A stretch of DNA of 64,000 nucleotides from Carnobacterium jeotgali MS3 (GTDB lineage Bacteria > Bacillota > Bacilli > Lactobacillales > Carnobacteriaceae), in contig NZ_JQNF01000005.1 of assembly GCF_000745125.1 (NCBI RefSeq), forward strand, positions 310,001-374,000, in the 5' to 3' direction. The position numbers and the translations under genes are program-made. Positions 2,479-57,247 of this stretch are shown in pieces. A model generated the notes under the pieces. The model saw nothing but the letters and a program-made list of their open reading frames with translations. It was not told the DNA's origin and searched no databases. Every line of letters begins with the position of its first letter. Position 1 is the first letter of the stretch.

Positions 2479-2493
2479 TGAACTAATTTATTC

Positions 2494-2744
2494 GGCTCTT
2501 AGTCAAATAGTGTGAATGCTTCTAAAAGTTCTTTCGGAATAGCCGGATTTGCTTGTAAGAGCCCTGGTACCGTCTTAAGCCTAAAGTCTTAAGAACTTTC
2601 AAGCCTCAAACACCGCTTAAACGCTAAAGCGTTAAAGCGATGTAATTCGCATTGAATACTTTACAGGGCTACAAGCAATCCTATTCCTCCAGAAGTGTTA
2701 AGCATGAACTAAATTCATCTATCCACACTAAAAAGTATAAAGCC
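2494..2744 (+). mobile_element. Fold-back mobile repeat, copy 1 (251 bp, MITE-like)
   Basis: The repeat begins GGCTCTTAGTCAAATAGTGTG and ends CCACACTAAAAAGTATAAAGCC, so the ends are imperfect inverted repeats. Both sides carry the same 8-bp direct repeat ATTTATTC (2486-2493 and 2745-2752). Internally GGATTTGCTTGTAAGAGCCC pairs with GGGCTACAAGCAATCC, so the unit folds back on itself. No transposase or useful reading frame is present. The 8-bp duplication and GGCTCTT ends resemble ISL3-family elements, which suggests a non-autonomous derivative; the family is inferred. Further copies lie at 34097 and 56963, with a remnant at 15151. Confidence 0.88.
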
Positions 2745-2774
2745 ATTTATTCATACTTAAAAATCTTAAAACCA

Positions 2775-2825: not shown

Positions 2826-3016
2826 AAGAGAAATCCGATAATGCCGTTGTTATGCTCAGTTAGTATTGAACCCGCAAGTAGCAGGTGGGCTCCGCTGTCA
2901 AACTTCTAACTACCAAGTGAAAAGGCTTGTTATCCGATTGAATCAGTTTGGATCCCAAGGTAATATTAATTGTTCGGTCAACACATGTTGAGCAAGACGA
3001 ACATCTCAGAAATCTT
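2826..3016 (-). ncRNA. ssrS: 6S RNA
   Basis: A non-coding stretch of about 190 bases directly downstream of rarA on the same strand, the usual place for 6S RNA in Firmicutes. It has its own consensus promoter (3023-3051) and an intrinsic terminator. The transcript reads GATTTCTGAGATGTTCGTC near the 5' end and CGGATTTCTC near the 3' end, with a long central region able to form the open bubble that mimics promoter DNA and binds vegetative RNA polymerase in stationary phase. Ends are estimated from the promoter and terminator. Identity rests on position, size and general layout; a covariance search would settle it. Confidence 0.78.
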
Positions 3017-34049: not shown

Positions 34050-34096
34050 ACAATCTTGAAGATCCCTAACTGTTGGGTCTTCAAGATTGTTTTTTT
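34050..34096 (+). terminator. Terminator after the ABC exporter
   Basis: ACAATCTTGAAGA and TCTTCAAGATTGT form the stem, extended by CCC/GGG, with a T-run that also serves as the target site of the adjacent mobile repeat. Confidence 0.92.
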
Positions 34097-34347
34097 GGCT
34101 CTTCGTCAAATAGTGTGAATGGTTCTAAAAATTCTTTCGGAATAGACGGATTTGCTTGTAAGAGCCCTGGTACCGTCTTAAGCCTAAAGTCTTAAGATCT
34201 TTCAAGCCTCAAACACCGCTTAAACGCTAAAGCGTTAAAGCGATATAATTCGCATTGAATACTTTACAGGGCTACAAGCAATCCTATTCCTCCAGAAGTG
34301 TTAAGCATAGACTAAATTCATCTATCTAGACTAAAAAGTATAGAGTC
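34097..34347 (+). mobile_element. Fold-back mobile repeat, copy 2 (251 bp, MITE-like)
   Basis: The same length and nearly the same sequence as the copy at 2494, starting GGCTCTTCGTCAAATAGTGT and ending CTAAAAAGTATAGAGTC. The flanks are a perfect 8-bp duplication GTTTTTTT (34089-34096 and 34348-34355). Its left duplication is the T-tract of the exporter's terminator. There is no coding capacity. Confidence 0.9.
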
Positions 34348-34427
34348 GTTTTTTTTCTATCTGGTAGTTCACAGTATAAAAAGGTACAATTGCTTAGAAG
34401 TATGAATAAGAAGGGAAGAATTTAAAT

Positions 34428-56906: not shown

Positions 56907-56960
56907 AAAAGACAGTTTTCCAAAAGGGGTTAGCCACTTTTGGAAAACTGTCTTTTTTTT
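56907..56960 (+). terminator. Terminator after typA
   Basis: AAAAGACAGTTTTCCAAAAG pairs perfectly with its complement and is followed by eight T residues, which are the target of mobile repeat copy 3. Confidence 0.93.
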
Positions 56961-56962
56961 AT

Positions 56963-57189
56963 GGCTCTTCGTCAAATAGTGTGGCTGCTTCAAAAAATTC
57001 TTTCAGAATAGCAGGATTTGCTTGTAAGAGCCCTGGTACCGTCTTAAGCCTCAAACACAGCTTAATCGCTAAAGCGTTAAATCTGTGTCATTCACATTGA
57101 ATACTTTACAGGGCTACAAGCAATCCTATTCCTCCAGAAGTGTTAAGCATGAACTAAATTCATCTATCCACACTAAAAAGTATAGAGCC
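56963..57189 (+). mobile_element. Fold-back mobile repeat, copy 3 (227 bp, MITE-like)
   Basis: It starts GGCTCTTCGTCAAATAGTGT and ends AAAAAGTATAGAGCC. Flanking 8-bp duplications are TTTTTTAT (56955-56962 and 57190-57197), the left one in the typA terminator T-tract. It is 24 bases shorter than the other copies; the missing segment lies between two AAGCC sequences, so a slip between direct repeats explains it. The ftsW promoter lies about 60 bases downstream. Confidence 0.9.
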
Positions 57190-57247
57190 TTTTTTATCGG
57201 AATTCTCCATTAAATAGGCCATTAGGTTAAATTAGCACCCTTTGTTA

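Follow-up and report, generated by a model that had tools for sequence, protein, structure and literature searches.

The Repeat Units in the Window

The window, a stretch of 64,000 nucleotides from Carnobacterium jeotgali MS3, contains three copies of a short fold-back repeat. Copy 1 lies beside a 6S RNA gene, copy 2 follows an ABC-transporter gene, and copy 3 is located at the 3' end of a typA/bipA-like gene (Table 1). As the first-pass annotation had described, each unit is flanked on both sides by a perfect 8 bp direct repeat. The common length of 251 bp given there holds for copies 1 and 2, whereas copy 3 measures 227 bp, with 24 bp of the interior absent. The shared ends were also found, with the correction that copy 2 ends in GAGTC. 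The hairpin predicted for the unit was far more stable than shuffled sequences (single-stranded DNA, -42.7 kcal/mol, z about -6 to -6.6, with 0 of 200 shuffles as good). The 6S RNA gene (Rfam RF00013, 74 bits) occupies positions 2828-3015 on the minus strand, about 75 bp beyond copy 1. L160 of genome G008, from another genus, is an independent copy that likewise follows the ABC-transporter gene found 5' of copy 2, although it is inserted at a different base.

Table 1: Positions of the three units, their duplications and their targets in the window.
Feature	Position	Strand	Remark
Left 8 bp target duplication of copy 1, ATTTATTC	2486..2493	.	Direct read; site empty in four congeners
Copy 1, ISL3-type MITE, 251 bp	2494..2744	+	Ends and BLAST
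Left end of copy 1, GGCTCTTAGTCAAATAGTGTG			Matches ISL3 right end
Right end of copy 1, CACACTAAAAAGTATAAAGCC			Matches ISL3 left end, reversed
Conserved fold-back core of copy 1	2524..2699	+	Model R1, 178.4 bits
Right 8 bp target duplication of copy 1, ATTTATTC	2745..2752	.	
Intrinsic terminator (stem-loop and T-tract) of upstream ABC-transporter gene	34050..34096	+	Target of copy 2
Left duplication of copy 2, GTTTTTTT	34089-34096		Last 8 bases of ABC-transporter terminator
Copy 2 of the MITE, 251 bp	34097..34347	+	
Core of copy 2	34127-34302	+	177.6 bits
Right 8 bp target duplication of copy 2, GTTTTTTT	34348..34355	.	
Intrinsic terminator of upstream typA/bipA-like gene	56910..56962	+	Target of copy 3
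Left duplication of copy 3, TTTTTTAT	56955-56962		Last 8 bases of typA/bipA-like terminator
Copy 3 of the MITE, 227 bp	56963..57189	+	Core hairpin 1 deleted
Core of copy 3	about 56993-57144	+	
Right 8 bp target duplication of copy 3, TTTTTTAT	57190..57197	.	

Copy Number, Duplications, and Empty Sites

The 2.5 Mb genome to which the window belongs (G000) yielded 48 BLAST pieces, corresponding to about 40 copies and fragments. These units were 128-261 bp long and had no transposase frame, as is usual for MITEs (no transposase gene, under about 300 bp). Duplications were scored at fixed ends predicted from the reference unit. An 8 bp duplication agreeing at 7-8 of 8 bases flanked 17 of the 21 full-length copies (perfect in 12, 7/8 in 5), and 0% of the shifted positions used as a control reached 7. 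Copies of 128-129 bp that have lost most of the core still carry duplications; we did not accept them as proof that the core is dispensable, since their junctions differ and the deletions may postdate insertion. The Carnobacterium copies had no match in plasmid and phage collections.

Empty sites in sister strains, which had been proposed as a check, were found in congeneric genomes at the exact positions of copies 1 and 3. The unit was present at site 3 in none of five congeners. At site 1 it was absent from four of the five, and the fifth, G001, has an independent copy nearby. Insertion is thus polymorphic at two of the three window loci. At L393 of the same G001, an unrelated transposase gene (IS30-like by eye) lies 3' of the typA-like terminator, where the congeners have no insert. 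G001 also carries the element in head-to-tail tandem pairs about 240-265 bp apart (L055, L083, L085, L089, L318, L322-L324, and L329).

Insertion into Terminators

The insertions prefer the T-tracts of intrinsic terminators. A stem-loop followed by a T-tract was found at 18 of 42 exactly bounded insertions in the sampled genomes (43%), compared with 61 of 1477 random intergenic control positions (4%; Fisher p 1e-13), and the duplications were 85% A+T. Copies 2 and 3 of the window lie inside the T-tracts of the upstream terminators, as does a copy beside lnu(B). The genes neighboring the copies were convergent in 32 cases, co-directional in 43, and divergent in 7, and no copy in the tested set fell within a frame of at least 110 aa. 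Landing in a terminator would do little harm to the host.

Relationship to ISL3 Elements

The units had been interpreted as a non-autonomous ISL3-type MITE, and this reading is supported by matching ISL3 ends in G000 together with the 8 bp duplications. Two PF01610 transposase genes are present in G000. One ISL3 element, L031 (450-aa frame, PF01610 183 bits), has the ends GGCTGTATAATTTTTGGTGTGGATG and GGCTCTTCGTCAAATGGTGTGGATG, to which window-type copies were identical at 21/25 and 22-23/25 bases. This element sits within a MITE copy and has its own perfect 8 bp duplication, ACTATTCA; duplications of this length were also seen by eye on ISL3 elements of two other genomes. In G001, which has 18 ISL3 hits, the MITE ends were identical at up to 24/25 bases. 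G012 has two ISL3 types with differing ends and two sets of MITEs, which resemble one or the other and share the same core. In other genera, too, the MITE ends track those of the local ISL3 elements. No PF01610 match is present at this time in G002 and G005, which hold about 100 copies each.

The units lack a transposase, and in each of them a conserved fold-back core separates the right end from the left end. Because the ends match and duplications and empty sites are found, we infer that an ISL3 transposase encoded at another genomic locus mobilizes the units. Such a transposase would recognize the unit ends, excise or copy the unit, and reinsert it, generating an 8 bp duplication; the preferred targets are T-tracts of intrinsic terminators.

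The origin of the core can be approached through Ca. Enterococcus avicola (G374, identified by shared sequence), where each of the six cores is 32-130 nt away from ISL3 transposase sequence. The core is found just after the transposase gene on the opposite strand, with the right end beyond it where visible. On the core strand the order thus runs from the right end through the core and the transposase to the left end, and removal of the transposase gene gives the MITE; the core appears to have come with the transposon. The core-bearing ISL3 transposases were interrupted and were seen in one metagenome assembly. Not every ISL3 element needs the core, as the ISL3 elements of G000 lack it.

Distribution of the Core

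The core is about 178 bp long, and copies from several genera can be aligned and have a common branched fold. It was found in four of the six genera of Carnobacteriaceae, as well as in Enterococcaceae and Aerococcaceae, at up to 106 copies per genome. A covariance model, whose E-values are rough, detected 33 copies in G000, 96 in G001, 106 in G002, and 99 in G005, 25-51 copies in several genomes of other genera, and multiple copies in genomes of Enterococcaceae and Aerococcaceae; the genomes are mostly single representatives, and many extra copies were picked by core score. Among 300 genomes spread over the class, five matched the core, one of them doubtfully. A weak match in G324 (31.5 bits) and pattern matches in Bacteroidales, Cyanobacteria, and other distant taxa were taken as chance.

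Carriers include Desemzia, Pisciglobus, Atopococcus, Carnobacterium maltaromaticum, Aerococcus, Enterococcus aquimarinus, E. rivorum, and Ca. Tetragenococcus pullicola. By eye, the E. aquimarinus copies have ISL3-type ends and 8 bp duplications. Clear ISL3 ends were absent from the copies of E. rivorum, Atopococcus, and C. maltaromaticum, and the Aerococcus copies retain at most a left-end remnant, AAATGGTGCTRGTGAGCAT; the core is thus more widespread than the ISL3-ended form. Beyond what the first-pass annotation had recognized, then, the unit interior is an order-wide conserved module and its insertions favor terminators. Neither gathering nor relaxed thresholds produced an Rfam match over the core, and a description of this repeat was not found in a literature search.

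Several further copies were observed. An unannotated core copy with an ISL3-type left end is present at about 4974-5150 of L213 and on about 68 E. faecium plasmids, where it occupies a terminator 3' of lnu(B) within the lsa(E)-lnu(B) resistance segment. L171 (G020) is a single, divergent copy of the core, with a folate-biosynthesis gene on one side and a reductase gene on the other; it is flanked by a perfect ACTTTTTAACAAA inverted pair and may be a stand-alone form. Some units have the same outer stem and ends with a second inner module, GTTGTCATGGTTGTTGCTGCTTCAGC...TGGGCATGAGTGCCCA, in place of the usual hairpins (L016, L017, L020, L028, and L063 in G000; L047, minus strand, and L411 in G001; L205 in G381). 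This module recurs in other species, indicating that interiors are exchanged as modules.

Covariation in the Core

The arms of the core stems are maintained in DNA as inverted repeats with exact Watson-Crick complementarity. Two-sided changes occurred in 27 of 39 pairs (120 cells versus 29.9 after shuffling). There were 352 two-sided change cells in 106 Carnobacteriaceae copies (79 when shuffled), and 544 two-sided changes, with about 14 one-sided, in 47 Aerococcaceae copies (167 when shuffled). The helix cells comprised 3738 Watson-Crick, 97 G-U, and 110 A-C pairs in the former set and 1665, 21, and 18 in the latter; alignments A2 and A3 were fitted to the model, which favors pairs, yet should favor G-U over A-C if anything. 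The genome consensuses gave 395 Watson-Crick, 4 G-U, and 4 A-C (about 403 cells). In contrast, tRNAs from the same loci, used as a control, gave 745 Watson-Crick, 50 G-U, and 0 A-C (799 cells). In a structured RNA read from one strand, helices would be expected to tolerate G-U far more than A-C. In the core, G-U was no commoner than A-C, which is the behavior of an inverted repeat in DNA. Changes in the stems occur only where both partners remain exactly complementary, as though the DNA, and not an RNA, were being read or repaired. Comparison of the identity of ends and core was discarded as a test of constraint after insertion, because the added copies had been selected on their core score and the windows used for the flanks extend into bases outside the element.

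This pattern makes it quite unlikely that the core is a transcribed structured RNA, such as a 3' UTR cis-element or a small RNA, selected for its RNA fold and spread on ISL3 ends: the very strong covariation, the conserved unpaired stretches, and the location of copies 3' of genes and outside the longer frames would fit, but G-U is nearly absent from the genome consensuses, is not enriched over A-C in either family as it is in tRNAs, and no Rfam family matches.

The unpaired sequences behave differently from the stems. Loops such as AAGCYTCAAA and TAATTCRCAT remain conserved across families, also in Aerococcaceae copies whose stems are almost wholly different.

The arms also appear to be rewritten within single copies. 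We found 46 two-sided changes private to one copy, some of which may belong to unsampled sub-lineages, whereas 0.18 were expected from the rate of private single changes. Perfect palindromes of 17 bp (L007) and 20 bp (L129) occur where relatives have imperfect arms. These exact arm copies and the private two-sided changes are what hairpin template switching predicts. In RNA genes, template switching has been proposed to create and repair stems, with two-sided changes arising in one step (PMC8794818).

Discussion

We consider it likely that the units are miniature ISL3-type elements moved by a transposase supplied in trans, with a core derived from the transposon and stems maintained at the DNA level; mobilization and the role of the core are inferred here from sequence. 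The core stems, which pair like a DNA inverted repeat, are probably kept by arm-to-arm template switching together with selection on the conserved loops. When the DNA is single-stranded during replication, the two arms would fold into a hairpin, and template switching would then correct a mismatch in either arm by copying the other; the loop sequences would be held by selection, perhaps as a protein-binding hairpin.

A more specific form of this proposal is possible, though tentative: by analogy with integron attC sites, the core hairpin may be read as single-stranded DNA by a protein, so that stems can vary if exactly paired and loops are fixed. If so, ISL3-type elements of Lactobacillales would have a general cis-acting module, the core, that assists their replication-coupled transposition or their recognition by a host factor.

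Two other readings seem unlikely to us, and to a similar degree. The first is that the repeat is an old functionless MITE lineage whose hairpins were perfected by template switching and whose conservation reflects descent from a few active copies. Single departures from the genome consensus do look neutral (GU 69, AC 75, other 67), and two-sided changes are frequent (116), but the conservation of the loops across families and in stem-divergent Aerococcaceae copies speaks against it. Template switching alone leaves these loops unexplained, and they argue for selected recognition. The second is that the hairpins act as RNA in both directions, for example by blocking transcription from either side or by protecting mRNA 3' ends. 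Because a G-U pair corresponds to a mismatch on the opposite strand, Watson-Crick pairs alone would persist, and this reading too predicts the observed pairing; insertion into terminators and the scarcity of divergent neighbors also agree. However, the conserved loop sequences are specific to one strand, and a T-tract is missing from the core itself. Where the copies lie is a consequence of target choice and is not necessarily a sign of function.

The proposed DNA-level maintenance bears on the use of covariation, which is usually read as proof of a functional RNA. Hundreds of natural copies with extreme, Watson-Crick-only covariation can separate selection on RNA from maintenance of a hairpin in DNA. 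A further implication is that ISL3 transposons may carry a cis-acting module that has escaped annotation; the family extends to resistance plasmids, as the lnu(B) copy in E. faecium illustrates.

ISL3 is a known kind of bacterial transposon, but the interior of the units is an unannotated hairpin module with hundreds of copies across lactic acid bacteria. With the ISL3 family (IS1476-like elements of Enterococcus; L031, L362, and L359) the units share GG(C/T)TCT/GGTTCT starts, 8 bp duplications, and end sequences that match within the same genome. On E. faecium plasmids, the ends of IS1476 copies are of the GGTTCTATAATATTTTGTGTTGGTG and GGCTCTTCGTCAAATTGTGTTGG types. In contrast to ISL3 elements, the units have no transposase, and most ISL3 elements examined have no core. 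Like bacterial MITEs in general, the units are short, non-coding, and numerous, with the end repeats of an autonomous element and target duplications. MITE interiors are usually not conserved across genera, whereas this one is recognizable across families and is carried by the parent element. The EFAR repeats of Enterococcus, the streptococcal BOX, and the enterobacterial ERIC/REP sequences are presumably comparable; by general description, they are intergenic fold-back repeats that occur in many copies and have modular interiors. EFAR targets stem-loops and deletes the target stem-loop; as so described, it differs from the units, which leave a clean 8 bp duplication. REP/RAYT sequences (IS200-like) are moved by a Y1 transposase and make no target duplication, unlike the Carnobacterium units. 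Finally, the two-sided changes of the core fit the pattern of template-switch hairpins (PMC8794818); those hairpins belong to RNA genes, whereas the core is a mobile DNA repeat in which G-U and A-C are equally rare.
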